A stretch of 55,635 nt of DNA from a virus: positions 1-55,635 of IMG/VR virus record IMGVR_UViG_3300026268_000003; one strand, given 5' to 3'. The position numbers and the translations under genes were made by a program. The notes below the pieces were generated by a model, which searched no databases, was not told the DNA's origin, and worked only from the letters and a program-made list of their open reading frames with translations. Shown in pieces: positions 9,053 through 53,780 of this stretch (position 1 is the first letter of the stretch; each line of letters starts with the position of its first letter).

Positions 9053-9376
9053 TTATCTTGGTGGATTAGAATCCCACGGCCCCCAATGTTGGTTCTTTAA
9101 CATTTTAATACCAGCTTCTTCTCCAGTATATTTATAAATTTTATGTCCTTTAACAGGAATTCCTCCAACTTTATAGTATAATTTTTTAGACATATGAATT
9201 TCTCTTCCATTACTATAGTCAAATACTACGGAGCCTAATTCAACCCACGCATGACCAAATGGTTTACCATCAGTTTTTAAAATACCTACTCCGTGGCATA
9301 AAGTCCATCTTTCATCGTCCATATGACTAATAGCAAGTCTACCAGCCGCTCTATAACAATCTCCACTGGCCGCCAT
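9053..9376 (-). CDS. Small Cys-His-Asp protein, papain/transglutaminase-like pattern
   Basis: 107 residues. Three spaced motifs look like a cysteine-peptidase or transglutaminase-like triad: GDCYRAAG (Cys7), GHAWVE (His42) and VFDYSNG (Asp53). Order and spacing fit a minimal NlpC/P60 or transglutaminase core, though the chain is short. It directly follows the holin gene (1 bp apart), so a cell-wall or protein-crosslink role in exit is conceivable. No signal peptide. Assignment is by motif geometry only. Confidence 0.45.
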   Translation of the reverse strand: MAASGDCYRAAGRLAISHMDDERWTLCHGVGILKTDGKPFGHAWVELGSVVFDYSNGREIHMSKKLYYKVGGIPVKGHKIYKYTGEEAGIKMLKNQHWGPWDSNPPR

Positions 9377-9377
9377 T

Positions 9378-9782
9378 TTATTTTGTTACCCTCTTTACCT
9401 TTTCAATTGAACGACCAGCAAAATAAGCCGCATAAACAGTCATCAATAATGTCTGATAAACTGGAACATACGCCGCTCCTATTGTAAAGTCACCCAAATT
9501 TCCATCAAATACACTTAATATAACAAATACGGCTGTAAGAAAAATCAAAGTTAATGGTCTGATATTTTTACTCAACCAACTTCCATGTTTCATATCGGCT
9601 TCCCAACGAGCAGACACTTGAGCTTGTGCCGCTTGTTCAGCTGTTGCTAATATTTGTGTTATCTTTTGTTCTGCTTCGGCTCTTTCTTCACCTGATGTGT
9701 GTAAATTATCTAATACTCCACCAATATCTTTTATTACATCACCACCACTTAAAAACCCTGTAATTGCACTCATAACTCCCAT
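9378..9782 (-). CDS. Holin, 3-TM type
   Basis: 134 residues. A helical acidic/Ala-rich N-terminus (EERAEAEQKITQILATAEQ) precedes WLSKNIRPLTLIFLTAVFVI and a second hydrophobic stretch (YQTLLMTVYAAYFAGRSIEK). This is the layout of the holin_3TMs family, whose hallmark is the SWxxRxxRP-like entry to the first helix and the AxxxGRSxEK exit. Holins open the inner membrane at lysis. The ATG follows a GGAGATAAGTT ribosome site. Neighbours are an exported thioredoxin-like protein and the Cys-His-Asp protein. Confidence 0.75.
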   Translation of the reverse strand: MGVMSAITGFLSGGDVIKDIGGVLDNLHTSGEERAEAEQKITQILATAEQAAQAQVSARWEADMKHGSWLSKNIRPLTLIFLTAVFVILSVFDGNLGDFTIGAAYVPVYQTLLMTVYAAYFAGRSIEKVKRVTK

Positions 9783-9792
9783 AACTTATCTC

Positions 9793-10233
9793 CTAAAAAA
9801 CATCTTCGGCTAATACACCATCTATAGCAGATTTTATATCGCCATTATCTATATCCAACTCACCATCCATATCGCCTTTCCACACTTCAACCTTCTTACC
9901 ATTGTGGAATAACGCAACAGATGGATAGTTTCGTATTCGAAGTTTCTTGATTGCTTTCTTAACATTTGAATGATTAACTTCATAGATAATACACCCCTCA
10001 AAGCCTTTTATACCATCAAATAATTTAGAGTCAAGATTTTTCTTTTGATACGCCGCTGTAAATTTAATTAATACAAACCCCTTAGCTGTTTTTTTCTTAA
10101 AAGTATCATCTGTGATTTCTGGTTTCGTTGTAGGTGTTCGTTGTGCACTAACAAAATCTGTACATAATACAAACATAAGTCCTATTGCACATAAAACTTT
10201 AAATCCACGCCTAATTAATTGTATTCTATTCAT
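9793..10233 (-). CDS. Exported thioredoxin-fold protein lacking CxxC
   Basis: 146 residues. An N-terminal RRGFKVLCAIGLMFVLCTDFVSAQ signal or anchor ends in a likely cleavage at SAQ. The rest follows the thioredoxin fold: FVLIKFTAAYQKKNL where WCGPC would sit, then IRNYPSVALFHNGKKVEVWKG with the cis-proline. The redox Cys pair is absent, so it is probably a periplasmic binding or scaffold version rather than an oxidoreductase. It lies between the MshEN-like protein (2 bp) and the holin (10 bp), apparently co-translated. Confidence 0.7.
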   Translation of the reverse strand: MNRIQLIRRGFKVLCAIGLMFVLCTDFVSAQRTPTTKPEITDDTFKKKTAKGFVLIKFTAAYQKKNLDSKLFDGIKGFEGCIIYEVNHSNVKKAIKKLRIRNYPSVALFHNGKKVEVWKGDMDGELDIDNGDIKSAIDGVLAEDVF

Positions 10234-10235
10234 AA

Positions 10236-10886
10236 CTATTTATCCCGTTTTCTCCGTTCAAGTGATTTTATATCATTTTGTAATTCTTTGATAACATCTT
10301 GAAGTTCTTCTATTTTTCCATAAGCCTCGTCCATTTCGTCCTGTAGACCTTCGACATTATCCTTATACTGTTCATAAGAACGAGGCCAGTTATATCCCTC
10401 TGGTCTTGATGGATACTCTCCTTCATATAATGATTTTAATGATGGGAGCTCTTTAGCTTCTTGTATGTCTGCCTGTAACATATACCACATACCAACCAAT
10501 GATGCAATTCCTGTGGCCGCACCAATCATTGTTTGTACTGATAAAGTGAACTTAGTACTTAGTACTGCTTCTTCACTTAATTCTTTTGGTTTGGACACTT
10601 TTTTCTCCTGTATAACTGGTTTCGGTTTACTCTTTGATTTTGAAATTTGTTTTTGTAATATTCTATCTCGTTTACTCTTTTCTACTTCGTCTGAAGCTTT
10701 ATTAGCTTGTTCCATCATAACTTCTGTTAAGTCTTCAACCGTAACATAACCCAATTCAACAAAGATTTCACCTAATTTTCTTTTATCACCTTGTGTTTGT
10801 ATCTGTACAGCTTTTGCAAGTTGTCGTTTTGTTATGATATCGGCGTCCATTAAAAGGTTGCCTAATCTTTCTCCATTCCGTGCCAT
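10236..10886 (-). CDS. MshEN-like (c-di-GMP-binding type) membrane protein with coiled coil
   Basis: 216 residues. Residues 7-30 and 37-60 are two 24-residue repeats matching the MshEN pattern RLGxxLxxxxxxxxxxLxxxLxxQ: RLG...LAKAVQIQ and KLG...LTEVMMEQ, six residues apart. MshEN domains of T2SS/T4P ATPases bind cyclic-di-GMP through this motif. No ATPase follows. Instead come a Lys/Ser linker, one TM segment (about 113-137) and a C-terminal coiled coil (about 165-213), so the MshEN part and the coiled coil should face opposite sides. Overlaps the H-NOX stop by one base, which implies tight coupling. Ligand binding is untested. Confidence 0.7.
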   Translation of the reverse strand: MARNGERLGNLLMDADIITKRQLAKAVQIQTQGDKRKLGEIFVELGYVTVEDLTEVMMEQANKASDEVEKSKRDRILQKQISKSKSKPKPVIQEKKVSKPKELSEEAVLSTKFTLSVQTMIGAATGIASLVGMWYMLQADIQEAKELPSLKSLYEGEYPSRPEGYNWPRSYEQYKDNVEGLQDEMDEAYGKIEELQDVIKELQNDIKSLERRKRDK

Positions 10887-11437
10887 TATTCGCTCTCTTT
10901 AAATCGTACCTCGAACACATCGTGGTCATCAGTACCTTTATATTCTATTTGTGTTATGTCTGCCTCACCACCAAAGTGTTGAGCCACTCCCTTTAACATT
11001 CCAACTGCTAACGGAGCTAATCCATCTCTTTGTGATACATAGTGAACTTTAAAATGATTCTCACCGAGTTCTTCTATTTCAAATGCAGGTGGAACTAAAC
11101 TTGGTAACATTTGAGAAATTCTTACATGCATCTCATCTAATCCTGCCACAAAACTTTGAAAATCATTACCAAACGCTTCAAAGTACTCACCATACCCTTT
11201 TGGTGCAACATCGGTTGCCCAATAAACACCGAACATTTCTAATACATCTCCTGCAGGAATATCTAATGTTTCTGAAACTGCTCCTACTAATGAGAATGTT
11301 ACACTATCATCATAAGATTCTAAATCTCCATAAACATCTTTGTCTATACCAGATGCTACAAGAACTTGTTCCCAAACTTCTTCACCTGCTTCTCGTGTAA
11401 CTAAAGTTCTTATTGCTTTATTTATCATTCCATACAT
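10886..11437 (-). CDS. H-NOX (heme nitric oxide/oxygen-binding) sensor protein
   Basis: 183 residues, the full length of stand-alone bacterial H-NOX proteins. It opens MYGMINKAIRTLV and contains YDDSVTFSLVGAVSETL, the heme-ligand His104 in LDEMH, Pro-Pro at 116-117 and the heme-propionate motif Y133-x-S135-x-R137, followed by GLAPLAVGML. The position of the oxygen-stabilising distal Tyr of Thermoanaerobacter H-NOX is a Pro, so NO-selective binding is expected. In bacteria H-NOX controls kinases or c-di-GMP enzymes. None is here; the next gene is the MshEN-like membrane protein. The start follows a 48-aa gene by 2 bp. Confidence 0.9.
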   Translation of the reverse strand: MYGMINKAIRTLVTREAGEEVWEQVLVASGIDKDVYGDLESYDDSVTFSLVGAVSETLDIPAGDVLEMFGVYWATDVAPKGYGEYFEAFGNDFQSFVAGLDEMHVRISQMLPSLVPPAFEIEELGENHFKVHYVSQRDGLAPLAVGMLKGVAQHFGGEADITQIEYKGTDDHDVFEVRFKESE

Positions 11438-11439
11438 TA

Positions 11440-11586
11440 TTATCTACCATATATATTTTTAATTGGATTATTTTTATTTTTCTCTAACCATTTTTTATGT
11501 TGACTAGCGGTTCGACCTTCCGTTGCCCACTTTTTATTTAACATCCGTCTTTTTCGTTTTCTATCTTTAGCTTTACTATTCGGCAT
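11440..11586 (-). CDS. Small basic protein (48 aa)
   Basis: A 48-residue, strongly basic protein starting MPNSKAKDRKRKRRM, with a W-x-E-G-R-T stretch and a Lys/Asn-rich tail. It overlaps the beta-barrel gene end by 11 bp and stops 2 bp before the H-NOX ATG, so it fits the operon exactly. Short Lys/Arg-rich proteins of this form are common in marine T4-like phages and may bind nucleic acid. No recognised domain. Confidence 0.55.
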   Translation of the reverse strand: MPNSKAKDRKRKRRMLNKKWATEGRTASQHKKWLEKNKNNPIKNIYGR

Positions 11587-12871
11587 TACTAAATCCTACA
11601 AATTGATAATTCAAACCAACTTTAAAATCATACGCTGGTCGTTCCCAGTAATATAAATAACGGCCTTCCGCAAAAAGTCCTAAATTTTCCTGTACTTTAA
11701 TTCCAAAAATTGCACCAAAATCATAATCATTCCAACTCATCCACATTGACTCCATATACATAAAATCAGAAGGTTCTTTACCTTCATCTACATGGTCTAT
11801 ATAAGAAGAGGCGTTGTGATATGAATATTTATCATGTCCATAATGATAAGGTAACCAATTACCCCACGCATGTATCCACCACCTATCTCCATAATGATAA
11901 TAATCAGTACCTATTACTAAAGATGTTTCTTTTTGATATCCTAAACCCTTTTTTATTCCATTCATGTATGATTCTAACAATCCTGGAAAATGATAAACAA
12001 AAAATTCTCTATCCGTCCATGCAATAATTTCTCCATCGGAAGTTTCCCACATATAATCATACCCAATAAATTCACCATCTCCATTAAAGAATGGGCCATC
12101 ACCAGGTACATCAATCCAAGTATCTGACTCTGCGTCGTAATATACTAAGTGACCTTCATGATATACATTATCTTCATCAACTATATACCATCTTTTATCA
12201 TCCATACCAAAAGCATCTTCGGCAAAATCCCACCAAGAACCTCTATACCAAGTTGTATCTAATATCATAGCATCAAATCCATATACAGGATGTTGTCTAT
12301 GTTTTGCACCAACACTAAATGTTATCTGATTACCTAAAAATTCTGGTGACCACTTTAATCTTAAATCACCTTGACCATAAGTTATTTCTTCTAAACCAAG
12401 TTCCGTCCAACCTAATTTAGCCATGAACCAATTACCAGTATATCTCAACCAATATTCTTGATTAAGATATTCATTTCCCCATTGACGACCTTCAGTCCAT
12501 TTTATTAAATATTCCCAACCTTTAACTGAACCAAATGTTGCATTTTCATTCGCGTTTTTTTCTGAACCATCGTACCAAGTTCCACCATTACCAGCATTCT
12601 TAACACCTCGTTTTGGTTCATAATTGAAACGACCAATTTTTCTCAATCCGAATGATTTTTGAAAATCAGCTTTTAATTCTCTTTCTTCCCTTTCAACTTC
12701 CAAGTCACCAGTATCCAATCCACCAACAATACTAAACCTATCCTCTTGATGTCGTGGTGCATTTAAACTAAAACTTGCATACGCAGTCGAGTACTTAAAA
12801 AAGTTTAGTATAATATCTTGACTAAACAAAGAAGTAGACAATAATAGTCCTATGAAAATGTTTTTTAACAT
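11576..12871 (-). CDS. Outer-membrane beta-barrel protein
   Basis: 431 residues. A signal peptide (MLKNIFIGLLLSTSLFSQ) leads into a chain full of Tyr, Trp and Gly in alternating strands separated by acidic loops (for example YWLRYTGNWFMAKLGW, GRYLYYWERPAYDFKVGLNY), the signature of a Gram-negative outer-membrane barrel. It ends in an aromatic strand NYQFVGF plus SNAE. Strong GGGAGA ribosome site; a GATATTTAT box lies 39 bp upstream. It heads the transcript that includes H-NOX. A phage could use such a protein to change the host surface, for instance superinfection exclusion or uptake, or carry it in the virion. Function unknown. Confidence 0.65.
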   Translation of the reverse strand: MLKNIFIGLLLSTSLFSQDIILNFFKYSTAYASFSLNAPRHQEDRFSIVGGLDTGDLEVEREERELKADFQKSFGLRKIGRFNYEPKRGVKNAGNGGTWYDGSEKNANENATFGSVKGWEYLIKWTEGRQWGNEYLNQEYWLRYTGNWFMAKLGWTELGLEEITYGQGDLRLKWSPEFLGNQITFSVGAKHRQHPVYGFDAMILDTTWYRGSWWDFAEDAFGMDDKRWYIVDEDNVYHEGHLVYYDAESDTWIDVPGDGPFFNGDGEFIGYDYMWETSDGEIIAWTDREFFVYHFPGLLESYMNGIKKGLGYQKETSLVIGTDYYHYGDRWWIHAWGNWLPYHYGHDKYSYHNASSYIDHVDEGKEPSDFMYMESMWMSWNDYDFGAIFGIKVQENLGLFAEGRYLYYWERPAYDFKVGLNYQFVGFSNAE

Positions 12872-34665: not shown

Positions 34666-35010
34666 GTGGATAACACATTAATAGAGAACCTTATCGGTGA
34701 GTATGGTTGGTTATTTCTTACGGGTATTATAGCCCTTCTATTTCAAAGTACTATACAAGAAGCCGTTGATGGTTTAATGATATTTTTAGGAAACGACTAC
34801 AACGAAGATGATGTCGTTGAAGTTGATGGCTCACCAGGCCGTATAGTAAGAGTCAGTATGTGGAAAACTGTATTTTTTATCTATCATATTGTAGATGGTA
34901 AAATAGTCGGTGGTTCTAAATTAGTAGTAGCTAATTCTAAATTAAAAGATTTGAAAATAGAAAAACCACTACCTAACTTAGATTTATCAAAATACAGCAA
35001 CCATGATTAA
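34666..35010 (+). CDS. Mini MscS-like membrane protein
   Basis: 114 residues from a GTG with AAGGA 8 bp upstream; the ATG at 34658 would give only a 7-codon frame. One TM helix (WLFLTGIIALLFQSTI) is followed by a segment resembling the MscS beta domain: GNDYNEDDVVEVDGSPGRIV (compare FxVGDxVEIDGxxGxV) and GSKLVVANSKLKDLKIE (compare LVxIPNSKL). Full MscS has three TM helices and a large cytoplasmic cage, so this is a strongly reduced version. One of only three plus-strand genes. May modulate osmotic behaviour or a host channel. Confidence 0.55.
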   Translation: MDNTLIENLIGEYGWLFLTGIIALLFQSTIQEAVDGLMIFLGNDYNEDDVVEVDGSPGRIVRVSMWKTVFFIYHIVDGKIVGGSKLVVANSKLKDLKIEKPLPNLDLSKYSNHD

Positions 35011-39260: not shown

Positions 39261-39269
39261 ATAAATATC
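39261..39269 (-). promoter_or_regulatory. GATATTTAT box upstream of 160-aa/117-aa/tmRNA genes
   Basis: Sense-strand GATATTTATAGTTGGGAGAA, 17 bp from ATG 39244. It would lead a transcript that also covers tmRNA. Confidence 0.45.
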
Positions 39270-40467
39270 AGTTCTTTAATAAATGTGGACTAGCTTCTAT
39301 TTGTCCAGCTCTTGACACTTCCACAAATTCTACTTTAGAATGATACTCACTAATATTGCTAGCACCGACATAGCTACATGAACTATTGATGCCATCTCGA
39401 ATATCATGTAAGATTCTTTTGACTTTCCCTTTGTATGGAATAATTTTGTGATTTCCTTCGACATTTTTATCGTTTCCTTTGAAATCCCTTGACGCGGAAC
39501 CCCTATACTTTTTAAATAATTGTTCGTTTGGCCATTCACCTACTTTTTCAATTTCGCCTGGACTTTCTTTCGTACCAGATAAAAGGGAGCCCAACATAAT
39601 CGTATCAGCCCCGCAACCAAGTCCTTTACAGACATCACCAATAGTACGAACACCACCATCAGCAATAACGGGAGTATTATAATTATCAGCAACGGCGACA
39701 GCATCAAGGAGAGCACTAACTTGAGGCACACCCACGCCTGTTCTAATTCTTGTTTCACATAATGAACCATTTCCCACTCCAATTCTAACCGAGTCCGCTC
39801 CTTGTTCACATAAAAATCGTACTCCTTCTGCCGTGGCCACTGACCCCGCGACGACTTCAACATTATTTTCTCCTTTAAGTTTACTTATAGCGTTACTCAT
39901 TAATTTATGATGACCATGTGCTATATCAATAAATAGTACATTACATCCATTATTTACTAATTCTTTTGCGCGTTCTAAATAATCACCTTTAACTCCAACA
40001 GCCGCACACAATGGTCGTTTAGACCAAATTTTTTCATCATGAATCATAGAATCTGCGAAATAAAATCTTTCTTTTAAATCTTTCCAATCTGATTTAGTAG
40101 GTGGACTATTCCAATGTCTTATACTACTATCCCATTCTTTCCATTCCTTTTCAATAGTTCTTTCTTCACCATCTGTAATGCCTGGTACTCCATCAAAATA
40201 TCTATCCCATTCATAATGTAATGATTTCATCATACGAGCGTGTTTCTCAATACTCTGAAATCTATGTATAACACCAACTCCACCCCAATCCATCATTTCT
40301 TTTGCCATATCTAATTCAGTTACGGTATCCATTGGTGAAGCAACTATTGGAATGGTTAATATAGTATTCTTGGTAAACCTTGTAGTCAAATCTACATCAT
40401 CACGAGATTCTAATTCAGAATACTTAGGAACTATATTTACATCATCATATGTTAATGTTTTTCTCAT
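39268..40467 (-). CDS. guaB: IMP dehydrogenase without CBS domains
   Basis: 399 residues. [19 protein letters not shown], the catalytic loop [18 protein letters not shown] (Cys237) and the flap KKYRGSAS are specific for IMP dehydrogenase/GMP reductase; the C-loop context fits IMPDH best. Normal IMPDH (~490 residues) has a CBS pair inserted after the first ~90 residues; here a ~60-residue charged segment ([14 protein letters not shown]...) replaces it, so allosteric nucleotide control is probably lost. It makes XMP from IMP, the first step to GMP, and would raise guanine supply. Phage copies are unusual. Confidence 0.88.
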
Positions 40468-43471: not shown

Positions 43472-43484
43472 TTATTACTCCTTG

Positions 43485-43552
43485 AGTGCCGGGTGAGATT
43501 CGAACTCACGTACAATGGATTTGCAATCCACCCCATTAGACCACTCTGGCAC
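43485..43552 (-). tRNA. tRNA-Cys (GCA)
   Basis: Acceptor stem GTGCCAG/CCGGCAC (one A-C mismatch), anticodon loop TTGCAAA giving GCA, T-arm GTGAG-TTCGAAT-CTCAC and discriminator U, a Cys identity base. The D-arm is short (total 68 nt). CCA is not encoded. The 3' end of the SWIM gene overlaps its 5' end. Confidence 0.85.
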
Positions 43553-43799
43553 CGACACGGCCCCTCTGTCGATGCGAAAACTTTTTATTTTGTATTTCAT
43601 TGATGTGTTTACAAAACTTTCTACCCCAACGATGTCTGAATGTAAAAGCTTTACATTCACAAGACCATTCAACTCGATTCGAGTCAAACCTAATATCATA
43701 TGGTTTACCATCTATCGTGTAATGATAAATATCATAGTCATCTACTAAAACACCATCAAATTTTTCGATTAAATAGTTAATCAATTCTTTATTTTTCAT
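43536..43799 (-). CDS. SWIM zinc-finger protein overlapping tRNA-Cys
   Basis: 87 residues. WSCECKAFTFRHRWGRKFCK then HI fits the SWIM pattern CxC...CxH, a zinc motif in DNA-associated proteins. The last nine residues are encoded by the first bases of tRNA-Cys, so gene end and tRNA start share DNA. ATG coupled to the HAD gene stop. Confidence 0.6.
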   Translation of the reverse strand: MKNKELINYLIEKFDGVLVDDYDIYHYTIDGKPYDIRFDSNRVEWSCECKAFTFRHRWGRKFCKHINEIQNKKFSHRQRGRVGARVV

Positions 43800-45187: not shown

Positions 45188-45296
45188 CGCGTCACTCCTA
45201 TTTGTTATGTTGGATTCATTTATAATAGGTTGAACCCTTTGACCTATTGTGAGATATATTACAGAATATGTAATGGTCTGATATCTCCTTTCATTG

Positions 45297-45369
45297 TGGA
45301 GCTGACAGGACTCGAACCTGCGACTTCCTCCGTGCAAGGGAGGCACTCTCCCAACTGAGTTACAGCCCC
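45297..45369 (-). tRNA. tRNA-Ala (UGC)
   Basis: 73 nt. Acceptor GGGGCTG/CAGCTCC with the G3-U70 Ala identity pair, D-arm ACTC..GAGT, anticodon loop CTTGCAC (UGC), T-arm GCAGG-TTCGAGT-CCTGT. Discriminator A, CCA not encoded. Standard cloverleaf. Confidence 0.95.
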
Positions 45370-49266: not shown

Positions 49267-50448
49267 TTAACTCATAGAGTTAGCGTTTTCAATTTCATCT
49301 TCATTAAACAAATCATCAGAAGAACCATCAGTAATATATTTCTGAACTAATTGTTTAACATAAGTTCTTTCAGACTCAAGTCCACCATCATCCGAAAACT
49401 GAGGATAGATACTAACTTCAGCCGCCTCATCAAGTCCAAAACCATCATAAAGTAAACCGGCTACTTCAACCGATGTACGAGTAGAAACTCCATTAGTAAT
49501 TCTACCTGTTTCAGATTTAGACTCTGAACGAGTAGTGGTAGTAATAGAAGCAACAGACTCAAGTAATGATTCATCAACGTGAGGAAACATATACTTTAAA
49601 AGACCATACTCTTCATCAGAAGTTAAGACATCCATCTCAACAACAATGAATCTATCCATAAGGGCTTTATCCATAACCCTTGTAGAAGTATACTCATTAC
49701 CAACGTTAGCAGTAGCAACGAAAGTTACACCTTCTGCAACACTAACAGTTTCAGCACCATCAGCCTCATCCAACCGAAGATATCTTTGACCTGTATCTAA
49801 TACAGTCATCAAGATATTCCACGCATCAGGATGAGCTCTTGATAATTCATCAAGAAGAATCACAGCGTTAGGTGTACGAATAGCTTTAACAAAAAGAGAT
49901 TCAGAAAAATAAGTTCCATCCTTTTTATCAAAGTGAGTATTACCAATTAAGGTAGACCGAGGGTCTTGAGTAGCACCCAAGTTAAAGTAGAAATCAGGTC
50001 TATCCATCGCATTAACAAGTGACTTAGCAGCCATTGTCTTACCACAACCAGCAGGACCAGTCATCAACATATTCTTACCACGAACAGCTGACCTAACTAA
50101 GAACTTCCATTTAAGTTCTGACATAACCAAACCTTTAGGTTTAAGTTTATAAGAACTATGTATAAAGTTAAGTACTTCAGCGTGGTCACTTGGTACATCA
50201 ACACTTGACGTATCAATTACTGGGGCTGAAGTTGATTCAAAAACAGACATAGGAACTGACCACCAGTAAGGTTTACCAGATTTGTTAATCCTACGTTCAA
50301 GGGCCATACCCTTAGCATAAGCTTTCTTTCGAGTACCAGTTCCAATCTCAGATGTTAATTTGTTACCATCAACATCCCAAGCATTGAATCGGTTACCCGA
50401 CTTTTCGATTTTTACAACAACAGAATTGTTATTGTCAATATTAGTCAT
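49267..50448 (-). CDS. MoxR/CobS-like AAA+ ATPase
   Basis: 393 residues. Walker A GPAGCGKTMA (131-140), Walker B NAVILLDELSRAH (194-206), sensor region EGVTFVATANVGNEYTS and an Arg-finger-like RVMDKALMDRF: the MoxR/CobS class. The N-terminal ~70 residues form a small separate domain. MoxR proteins pair with VWA proteins to remodel complexes; such a VWA protein is encoded at 51125. A sigma-70-type promoter and a GGAG site precede it. Marine T4-like phages are often annotated cobS for such genes. Confidence 0.85.
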   Translation of the reverse strand: MTNIDNNNSVVVKIEKSGNRFNAWDVDGNKLTSEIGTGTRKKAYAKGMALERRINKSGKPYWWSVPMSVFESTSAPVIDTSSVDVPSDHAEVLNFIHSSYKLKPKGLVMSELKWKFLVRSAVRGKNMLMTGPAGCGKTMAAKSLVNAMDRPDFYFNLGATQDPRSTLIGNTHFDKKDGTYFSESLFVKAIRTPNAVILLDELSRAHPDAWNILMTVLDTGQRYLRLDEADGAETVSVAEGVTFVATANVGNEYTSTRVMDKALMDRFIVVEMDVLTSDEEYGLLKYMFPHVDESLLESVASITTTTRSESKSETGRITNGVSTRTSVEVAGLLYDGFGLDEAAEVSIYPQFSDDGGLESERTYVKQLVQKYITDGSSDDLFNEDEIENANSMS

Positions 50449-51124: not shown

Positions 51125-53275
51125 TTACTTCTCCAAGAATTTTTTATTCATTGTTTTAGCAACAGAAAGAACAGAAGTTACATCAATAAATTCAGCATCA
51201 GCACCATACATTCTTTTAAAAGTACCAGTGGCGTGACTTCTATCATATGAATCTCCAATGAAATAACTCATAACATGAACACCCATATAACGAATTTCAT
51301 CAACCATTTTTCTGGTGTGATTGATTGCAGTATCATGATGATAATCAATATCATTATTACCAAACATTGGCATCCCATCAGAAAAGTTTAAGAAGTAAGA
51401 ATCTTTATCTTTAGAAGTAGGAACAATATCACTAAGAATAGCTTCGAAACATAATCCTTCAGGAGTAGTTCCACTAGCTCTAAGATAAGGAAAAAGACTT
51501 CTAACTTTACGAAAGTTATCAATACGAGAATCATAAGCAATCAAAACAATAGGATATTCTGTAATAGAACCGCGTCTAGCATACCGACTACCACTTGTTT
51601 GTGTACTTCTGAAACTTACAACAACATCAACGTTAGAAATCATATCAACAGCTTTACAAAGAGCTACAACAGAAGTCATAGTGTTAGTCCACTTTGAACC
51701 ACCCATCGAACCACTAGCGTCAACTGAAATGTGAAGAAACGCATCAGAGTAAGATTCTACAAATGTATTTTGAAAAACTCTTTCATTACCAAAACCAAGT
51801 TCAGCAACTAATCTTTTATCAATACGACCAGAATCTAATCTCGTCCACTTAGTTTCACGACTCTCACCACGAACTTGAAGTTTTCTTCCAAGTATAGTTC
51901 CAAGTCTAATACCATCTTCAACATAACCTTCTTCATTTTCTTCATCACGATTATAGTAGTAACGAGAATACTTTGAAGTGGACAACATATTAATAGTATC
52001 ACTATCAATTAATTCTTTAGTTAATTTCTTAACCATAACAACTTTAGTAGGAGTTTTCTTTCCATAGTATCTATCTTCAATACCTTTAGCAACTTCAACA
52101 TAACTCATACCAGAAGATTCAACTGTATCTAAATCTCTTTTTTCTTTTTTGGTAACTTTCTTCTTAGAAATTTCACCATCCATAAATTTATTTTGTTTCT
52201 TGATAGCATTCTCAAGTTGTTTTTTCTGATTATCAGTAAGAGTAACTTCTTCACTTTTATCTGAAGAAGAAGAAGAACCACTATCCATTTCAGAGTTATC
52301 CAACATCTCTTTAAACTCTTCATCAGTAAGTTCTTTAGGTGATTTTTTATCTCCATCAGAACCTTCACCATTACCACTAGCAGATTGAGAATCAGAATCA
52401 TCACCTTCATCAGCTGGGGAATAAGAAACTTCACCAGTATCTGGGTCAACATTTTCAATACCATCTTTAAGATTATTCATTATAATTGAATAAACTTCAA
52501 GTGATACAATAAAAGCATCTTCAGTAGAATTTAACCTACTAATATTTTTTAAACCAATTTCATTCCAAATGTCACGAAGACCATTCAAAGAATTTAAATT
52601 AGTATTTTTATTAGCAAGATTAATAAGTCTAAACATATAAGAATCTAAATTCTCATTAGTATATTCATTTGAAATAAGAGCTTTATCAAGAATCTTTGAG
52701 TAAAAATACTTGTCATACATTGAATGGTAATAACCTTTATAACCAGGTGATGTAGTAAAAATATAATTATCAATTCGTCTATCTTCTACATAATTAAGGA
52801 TATTTTTTACAATCTCCATACCCTTATTTTTAGAATAACCTTTTTTCTCACCAAGAAGAAAATACTCTTCTGGAATACTATTTTCAAGATTCTTTAAAAA
52901 ATCAAAATCAGAAAGTTTAATATGTGAACCTTCATGAAGGGCGAGACCAACAGTAGAATCAAAAAGTTTATCATCTAACTTAGCAGAAATAGTAACGTTT
53001 TTACCATCAGTAAAACTATCACCATGTGAATTAAAAGTAACTTTAATATCTGGGTCACCAGTAACGATACCAACAAAGTTACCAACAGCTCTCCTATATG
53101 AAGAGAGGGCGATTAAATCAGTTTTTGGTTTTACATCTTCGTCATCAAATACCGAACCAGTATTATCCCAACCTTCATCTAACCAGAATGAACTGAAATT
53201 ATTAGTTTTATTAAGACTCCCAACAGAATACTTCTCACGAAGAGCCATGGGATTGAATTTTTTTGTTTCTGACAT
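51125..53275 (-). CDS. Metallopeptidase-like/VWA protein, partner of AAA (CobT-like)
   Basis: 716 residues from ATG 53275 (AAGGA site; the longer reading starts upstream of the promoter). N-terminal part: LALHEGSHIK (HEGSH, 114-118) and NYVEDRRID (~161-169), together the HExxH...ED(x)R(x)D pattern of a VWA-linked metallopeptidase domain. Then an acidic Ser/Asp-rich linker (CobT-like), and a C-terminal VWA domain with MIDAS DASGSMGGSKW and an Asp-rich TPEGL loop. Forms a MoxR-VWA pair with 49267 and is transcribed from its own early promoter. Target unknown. Confidence 0.8.
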   Translation of the reverse strand: MSETKKFNPMALREKYSVGSLNKTNNFSSFWLDEGWDNTGSVFDDEDVKPKTDLIALSSYRRAVGNFVGIVTGDPDIKVTFNSHGDSFTDGKNVTISAKLDDKLFDSTVGLALHEGSHIKLSDFDFLKNLENSIPEEYFLLGEKKGYSKNKGMEIVKNILNYVEDRRIDNYIFTTSPGYKGYYHSMYDKYFYSKILDKALISNEYTNENLDSYMFRLINLANKNTNLNSLNGLRDIWNEIGLKNISRLNSTEDAFIVSLEVYSIIMNNLKDGIENVDPDTGEVSYSPADEGDDSDSQSASGNGEGSDGDKKSPKELTDEEFKEMLDNSEMDSGSSSSSDKSEEVTLTDNQKKQLENAIKKQNKFMDGEISKKKVTKKEKRDLDTVESSGMSYVEVAKGIEDRYYGKKTPTKVVMVKKLTKELIDSDTINMLSTSKYSRYYYNRDEENEEGYVEDGIRLGTILGRKLQVRGESRETKWTRLDSGRIDKRLVAELGFGNERVFQNTFVESYSDAFLHISVDASGSMGGSKWTNTMTSVVALCKAVDMISNVDVVVSFRSTQTSGSRYARRGSITEYPIVLIAYDSRIDNFRKVRSLFPYLRASGTTPEGLCFEAILSDIVPTSKDKDSYFLNFSDGMPMFGNNDIDYHHDTAINHTRKMVDEIRYMGVHVMSYFIGDSYDRSHATGTFKRMYGADAEFIDVTSVLSVAKTMNKKFLEK

Positions 53276-53285
53276 TTTTTCCTTG

Positions 53286-53343
53286 TTTCTCATTTCGTTA
53301 TTAATATACGTATAATGCAAACAACAGTCAAGAGCTTTTTTCA
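53286..53343. repeat. 58-bp promoter repeat, copy 2
   Basis: See copy 1. The differing base is position 53325. Confidence 0.85.
53303..53331 (-). promoter_or_regulatory. Sigma-70-type early promoter for VWA gene
   Basis: TTGACT (53326-53331), 17-bp spacer, TATATT (53303-53308). The stop of the 150-aa gene lies in the -35 box, as at 50521. Confidence 0.88.
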
Positions 53344-53780
53344 ATATTTTTAATTATTTTTTTATAAACTTTATTCACTGCATCCATTTGTTTTGTGGAA
53401 AGTGACATTCTACCTTTAGCTTGTTTTGAAATATCTTTTAGAAAATTTGTCGTATTACGTTTGTAACCACTTGTCCAACTGGTTTTTTCAACGGAATCTA
53501 TTACCAAATTAATTTTTGGTACAACAGATTCTAACCATTTATACCTTTCGGCTTTATATTTTGGATTATCTCGTTCTATTATACCATCTATACAAGCTAC
53601 CATCTTATCAGTAATCCTACGACCACTAATTAAAGCAAGTAACATATCTGAAGTAAATTGGTCTGAAGACCCAGACTTCTCAATCTGTCTATTTGCGATT
53701 TCTTTTAGAGATTTTATTTTATCTCCATATAACTTTGAATTGTGTTCAATCCATTTTTGACGATTAGTCATTCGTTTCAT
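53328..53780 (-). CDS. Unknown early protein (150 aa)
   Basis: 150 residues, basic and helical, starting MKRMTNRQKWIEHNSKLYGD and ending NKVYKKIIKNIEKSS. Its ATG follows the -10 element by 5 bp, so the mRNA may be leaderless; a second Met at position 4 is an alternative. Likely an early host-takeover protein. No family. Confidence 0.55.
   Translation of the reverse strand: MKRMTNRQKWIEHNSKLYGDKIKSLKEIANRQIEKSGSSDQFTSDMLLALISGRRITDKMVACIDGIIERDNPKYKAERYKWLESVVPKINLVIDSVEKTSWTSGYKRNTTNFLKDISKQAKGRMSLSTKQMDAVNKVYKKIIKNIEKSS

Follow-up and report, generated by a model that had tools for sequence, protein, structure and literature searches.

The 55.6 kb virus record IMGVR_UViG_3300026268_000003 from IMG/VR (positions 1-55,635, hereafter the window) encodes a full-length H-NOX (heme NO/O2-binding) protein, followed by an overlapping gene for a small membrane protein that accompanies H-NOX across otherwise dissimilar phages. 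We propose, giving it roughly an even chance of being right, that these two genes specify a phage-owned, NO-responsive membrane switch that acts on lysis. If this is true, bacterial viruses sense a gas, and since the phage H-NOX comes with its own partner, the reading of NO by phages becomes testable with two small genes. The partner would also represent a compact, kinase-free output for H-NOX with a predicted docking element.

A phage-encoded H-NOX protein

The H-NOX ORF runs from 11437 to 10886 on the minus strand, begins with an ATG and encodes 183 amino acids. The Pfam HNOB profile (PF07700) matches it over positions 1-162 of its 163 with 150.5 bits (E 5e-44), far above the cut-off of 25.5, and a phmmer search of the PDB retrieved the Nostoc H-NOX Alr2278 as the nearest solved structure (E 3e-44, residues 1-182). 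An AlphaFold2 model built with 45 viral and cellular homologues as input (mean pLDDT 87) adopts the H-NOX fold, and its best match in the PDB is again the Nostoc protein (3tf8; TM 0.92, 1.7 Å rmsd, E 3.5e-18). The sequence-only reading of this DNA had recognized a full-length H-NOX protein of phage origin and had suggested a profile search and a structure prediction as checks; both of these, together with the 14 further viral contigs described below, bear the identification out.

The residues H104, P116, P117, Y133, S135 and R137 are all retained as in the solved members of the family, so that the reading of an intact proximal histidine, YxSxR motif and proline pair is upheld by the alignment with Nostoc Alr2278 and other relatives. 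H104 (the proximal heme ligand; codon at 11126..11128, minus strand) is invariant in 12 viral and 39 cellular homologues, P117, Y133 and R137 likewise do not vary among viral and cellular relatives, and the position of S135 is occupied by threonine in 3 of the 39 cellular proteins. The heme-propionate motif Y133-x-S135-x-R137 maps to 11027..11041 on the minus strand. The viral protein thus resembles Alr2278 from Nostoc sp. PCC 7120 (2o09, 3tf8) in being a stand-alone domain with the same fold (38% identity) and the same heme residues, but differs from it in belonging to a separate viral clade, in which about 20 residues are fixed and specific to the viruses, and in having a phage membrane partner.

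The distal pocket called for a correction. The same reading had placed a proline at the site of the tyrosine that stabilizes bound oxygen; the absence of such a tyrosine stands, but the assignment was off by one residue. It is Leu143 that aligns with Met144 of Nostoc H-NOX and Ile145 of sGC beta1, which we take to be the equivalent distal-pocket position, whereas Pro142 is a family-wide residue present in 36 of the 39 cellular relatives. None of the six viral H-NOX rows shows a hydrogen-bonding distal tyrosine, the site being Pro142/Leu143, and a pocket of this kind makes NO selectivity plausible. We infer that the protein binds heme through His104, and that it binds NO and not O2.

H-NOX of Vibrio cholerae is reported to be able to act as a heme-free redox sensor through cysteines (PMC7108781). 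On this precedent one could suppose that the viral protein serves as a sensor of redox state or heme supply, or as an NO scavenger, and not in NO signaling. The window H-NOX contains no cysteine in its 183 residues, which excludes the cysteine-based mechanism of the Vibrio type; moreover, the heme residues are invariant, and a scavenger would have no need of a linked membrane partner. We accordingly hold such functions to be quite improbable.

Viral provenance and evolution of the gene

Both flanks of the H-NOX gene consist of phage genes, including those for a baseplate wedge protein, RusA, a primase, an SbcC-like exonuclease and a holin. The nearest relatives of the baseplate gene are from the Microcystis phage Mel-JY01 and from Flavobacterium phages, which is consistent with a T4-like myophage. 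A search of viral metagenomes, as had been recommended by the earlier reading, recovered H-NOX genes in 14 further IMG/VR contigs, several of which carry phage tail-sheath, tape-measure or major-head genes; scans with broader alignments for other types of viral H-NOX returned only the same 14 contigs. The viral copies are 75-93% identical to that of the window, and their nearest cellular counterparts only 44-46%, with 46% being the maximum found in a pattern-based scan that covered genomes from 84,980 species of bacteria and archaea. In a phylogenetic tree 12 viral copies form a single clade (support 99) on a long stem branch, and this clade lies outside all sampled host lineages. Within this clade dN ranges from 0.03 to 0.16 and dS from 0.27 to saturation, and the resulting dN/dS of about 0.1 points to a working gene under purifying selection.

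A chimeric contig carrying a host gene had been named in advance as the finding that would undo the phage assignment, and the H-NOX family is indeed a cellular one. The phage genes on both sides and the 14 other viral contigs rule this out, and when the conserved gene order, the low dN/dS and the distance from cellular H-NOX are also considered, the probability that we are dealing with a misassembled host gene or a decaying passenger is practically nil.

We found no H-NOX in the 50,697 phage records of INPHARED, the PHROGs families or the BFVD models at an E-value of 0.001, and the membrane partner too was not found in the INPHARED records. Thus, no cultured phage points to the host. The lipoprotein style of the neighboring genes is perhaps that of a host from a Bacteroidota-like group, and we tentatively judge the habitat of these phages to be marine. 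A literature search, whose coverage excluded most subscription journals and bioRxiv preprints, returned no paper on phage H-NOX.

Over ~10 kb the contig L014 hardly differs from the window (99.6% identity in one 250-base bin and 100% in the rest), and the match runs into the first 79 bases of the H-NOX gene (window 11358-11437), after which there are 33 mismatches in about 250 bases. This break is likely to be a recombination point inside the gene. Three contigs (L011, L012 and L014) end within the H-NOX gene and two more (L023 and L027) start inside or just after it. The divergence of L014, taken with the ends of L011, L012 and L014, suggests either that the cassette has recombined or that strain variation interrupts the assemblies; perhaps all five breaks arose because near-identical H-NOX genes from several phages tangled the assemblies.

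A membrane partner with an MshEN-type domain

The gene after H-NOX (10236..10886, minus strand) encodes a protein of 216 amino acids, in which an MshEN-type domain is followed by a linker, one transmembrane (TM) helix and a coiled coil. The stop codon of H-NOX and the start codon of this gene share bases (TAATG). The MshEN domain is recognized by NF053729 (52 bits, cut-off 38), and a profile of the family finds PilB (E 1.7e-10) and MshE (E 3.5e-5) in the PDB. The TM helix (10470..10535, minus strand) forms part of the conserved core of the family and is predicted to be oriented N-in/C-out, with a net positive charge before it and a negative charge after it. The tail (10242..10376, minus strand), predicted to be periplasmic, corresponds to a helix spanning residues 171-215 in the structure model and matches coiled coils; the model from which the helices were taken is weak (pLDDT 62). 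The partner yielded no match to a kinase, GGDEF or cyclase domain. In the bacterial H-NOX-associated kinases and diguanylate cyclases, and in sGC, an H-NOX that stands alone or is fused passes the NO state to a separate output module, which is often coded next door. The phage arrangement differs from these in that the neighbor sits in the membrane and is not an enzyme, combining an MshEN-type domain with a coiled coil.

In every viral locus with enough downstream sequence the order is H-NOX followed by the partner. The contigs L005-L010 and L013 share with the window the H-NOX-partner pair and no other detected gene, which indicates that the pair moves between unrelated phages; the contigs that bear it differ in their structural genes, which include a tail sheath, a tape measure or a major head protein of another kind. 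Relatives of the partner also occur in about 50 other phage loci, presumed marine, that lack H-NOX. About 20 loci of the partner family encode the TM/coiled-coil core only, and 26 distinct proteins of the family possess the MshEN domain and have no H-NOX upstream. A partner-type MshEN domain was found beside H-NOX in none of the 80 nearest cellular loci. This link between H-NOX and its partner, comprising the fixed downstream gene, an H-NOX-specific linker and the lysis neighborhood, had escaped the sequence-only reading.

The MshEN-type domain occupies residues 7-60 of the partner (10707..10868, minus strand) and resembles the c-di-GMP-receptor domains of the MshEN/T2SSE_N group (MshE, PilB, PilF) in its two tandem 24-residue motifs and its above-threshold profile match. 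The canonical contacts with c-di-GMP are made by two arginines, two glutamines, leucine clusters and turn glycines (PMC5013675), and on this consensus we examined the motif RLG...G...LxxxLxxQ, present twice with intact ligand residues in the canonical form. In the window, motif I retains R7-L-G and Q30 with the glycine replaced by Asp16, and motif II has Lys37 in place of arginine and retains Q60; the versions from L005, L007 and L010 have lost more ligand residues. Across the viral set the first turn glycine is almost always aspartate, the second arginine is mostly lysine, glutamate, serine or threonine, and the second glutamine is lost in many, which, with their fusion to a TM helix and coiled-coil tail in phage proteins, sets these domains apart from those of MshE, PilB and PilF. 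In a repaired PilF domain, restoring the natural serine at the arginine position of motif II abolished binding (PMC12002112). These residue losses, along with the PilF result, weaken the case for a normal c-di-GMP receptor, and the viral domain is probably a helical adaptor instead; residual nucleotide binding by the window protein is possible.

Bacterial H-NOX usually acts through kinases or cyclases (PMC10746521, PMC8738867). Given such partners, and a phage membrane protein with a domain from a c-di-GMP receptor family, the viral H-NOX might bind host histidine kinases or diguanylate cyclases and feed a true or false NO signal into c-di-GMP or biofilm control. We consider this improbable: a dedicated phage partner with an H-NOX-specific segment follows H-NOX in every locus, the viral H-NOX proteins lie outside the sampled host lineages and the viral MshEN motifs are degenerate.

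A linker helix confined to H-NOX-linked partners

A 13-residue linker helix, EKSKRDRLLQKQI, lies between the MshEN domain and the membrane in 9 of 9 distinct H-NOX-linked partners and in 0 of the 26 others (Fisher p 1.4e-8 before allowing for relatedness). In the window it spans E69-I81 of the partner (EKSKRDRILQKQI; 10644..10682, minus strand) and is helical in the model. The consensus of the nine proteins is E-K-S/G/A-K-R-D-R/F-L/I/V-L-Q-K/Q-Q-I, and with 9 of 13 positions invariant (alignment A2) it is better conserved than even the MshEN domain. We propose that it is the docking site for H-NOX. On the MshEN tree only 2 to 4 evolutionarily independent changes underlie the association, which is therefore strong but not decisive. 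Two of the proteins without H-NOX (L021 and L109) are nested in the clade of H-NOX-linked partners (support 99) and also lack the linker helix, apparently by joint loss of the gene and the helix. Conversely, L023 and L027 possess the linker segment in proteins that begin at the contig end, so that the upstream gene falls outside the contig. No HNOB gene was found anywhere in the MshEN-bearing records without H-NOX (L019, L021 and 25 more, searched whole), these records being fragments.

Lysis neighborhood and proposed mechanism

The gene block in the window holds H-NOX, the overlapping partner, a thioredoxin-fold protein and a holin. The thioredoxin-fold protein (9793..10233, minus strand; PF00085, 26.7 bits) has an apparent signal peptide and lacks a CxxC motif. 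Of 63 loci, 60 have a protein of this exported type next to the partner, in no case with CxxC, and it looks like a binding scaffold. A possible co-evolution of this protein with the coiled-coil tail of the partner was considered but not supported, the correlation being stronger for the MshEN domain than for the tail. The holin (9378..9782, minus strand), a 3-TM protein of the GTA type, is encoded two genes after the partner; it matches phrog_3427 (E 1.2e-26) and falls just below the cut-off for PF11351, and relatives occur in 13 loci. Endolysins are encoded within about 2 kb of the module in L005 and L116 (phrog_465) and in L007 (GH108). The H-NOX-partner module is thus situated between tail genes and lysis genes. 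It recurs in unrelated tailed phages near holin or endolysin genes, and like an antiholin-type lysis regulator it is coded in the lysis region, close to the holin in the window and to the endolysins in L005, L007 and L116.

Two further neighbors deserve mention. The first (window 11576-12871, minus strand) is a protein of 431 aa with a signal peptide that resembles an outer-membrane barrel and has no Pfam or PHROG match; relatives lie beside the module in 35 loci. The second (window 9053-9376, minus strand; 107 aa) has conserved blocks containing Cys and His, and is possibly a small peptidase, although no family match was found for it.

The switch may be envisaged as follows. H-NOX would bind heme via His104, and then NO but not O2. 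Binding of NO would alter the hold of H-NOX on the linked partner's charged helix, EKSKRDR(L/I)LQKQI, and the resulting shift of the cytosolic MshEN/linker part would be conveyed by the single TM helix to the periplasmic coiled coil. In this way the amount of NO inside the infected cell would set the time of the lysis driven by holin and endolysin or change the envelope late in infection, with lysis timing as the most likely output and an envelope change as the next. The connection to lysis is drawn from gene neighborhood, and the proximity may reflect the clustering of late phage genes; on its other side the module is flanked by tail genes. The same NO switch could instead have an output unrelated to lysis, altering the envelope for superinfection exclusion or stabilization of the infected cell, for example. 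The barrel-like protein next to the module in the 35 loci (cluster 1) and the scaffold-like thioredoxin-fold neighbor would suit this role, but holin and endolysin neighbors recur in unrelated phages and homology to exclusion systems was looked for and not found. Hence, we regard an envelope output as unlikely, though the most serious competitor to control of lysis.

Lysis inhibition has been described as the first case of environmental sensing by phages (PMC7182436). The predicted switch acting on lysis is comparable to the T4 RI/T and ICP1 lysis inhibition systems, in that the phage reads the situation of the cell and sets the time of lysis; it differs in that the signal in those systems is superinfection, whereas here a gas-sensor protein has been added.

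Relatives of the MshEN/TM partner may also be associated with a different kind of sensor. In 11 loci without H-NOX (L118, L119, L120, L121-L123, L130, L132, L133, L136, L140) a POPDC protein is encoded near the MshEN/TM protein, and H-NOX and POPDC never occur in one locus of the analyzed set. We tentatively suggest, with less conviction than for the switch itself, that the module is an exchangeable sensory cassette set on a shared lysis-region membrane adaptor, with H-NOX, joined by a dedicated docking helix, serving for NO in some marine phages and a Popeye-type protein taking its place in others. If this were true, it would amount to gas-gated control of infection by viruses. The POPDC (Popeye) representative at L120:5008-5661, a membrane protein, contains a domain that binds cyclic nucleotides (PF04831, 55 bits; PF00027, 53 bits).

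Other genes of the window

Elsewhere the window encodes a small membrane protein like the MscS beta domain (34666-35010, plus strand), which is just below the cut-off for PF00924, and a similar one in L004 (1943-2362) is above it. It also encodes an IMP dehydrogenase/GMP reductase (39268-40467, minus strand; PF00478, 337 bits). A MoxR-type AAA+ ATPase (49267-50448, minus strand) is CobS-like, with a weak C-terminal match to NorQ/CbbQ that is above the cut-off, and is adjoined by the gene for a large CobT-like protein (51125-53344, minus strand). Two tRNA genes, for tRNA-Cys (43484-43558) and tRNA-Ala (45296-45369), are found on the minus strand.
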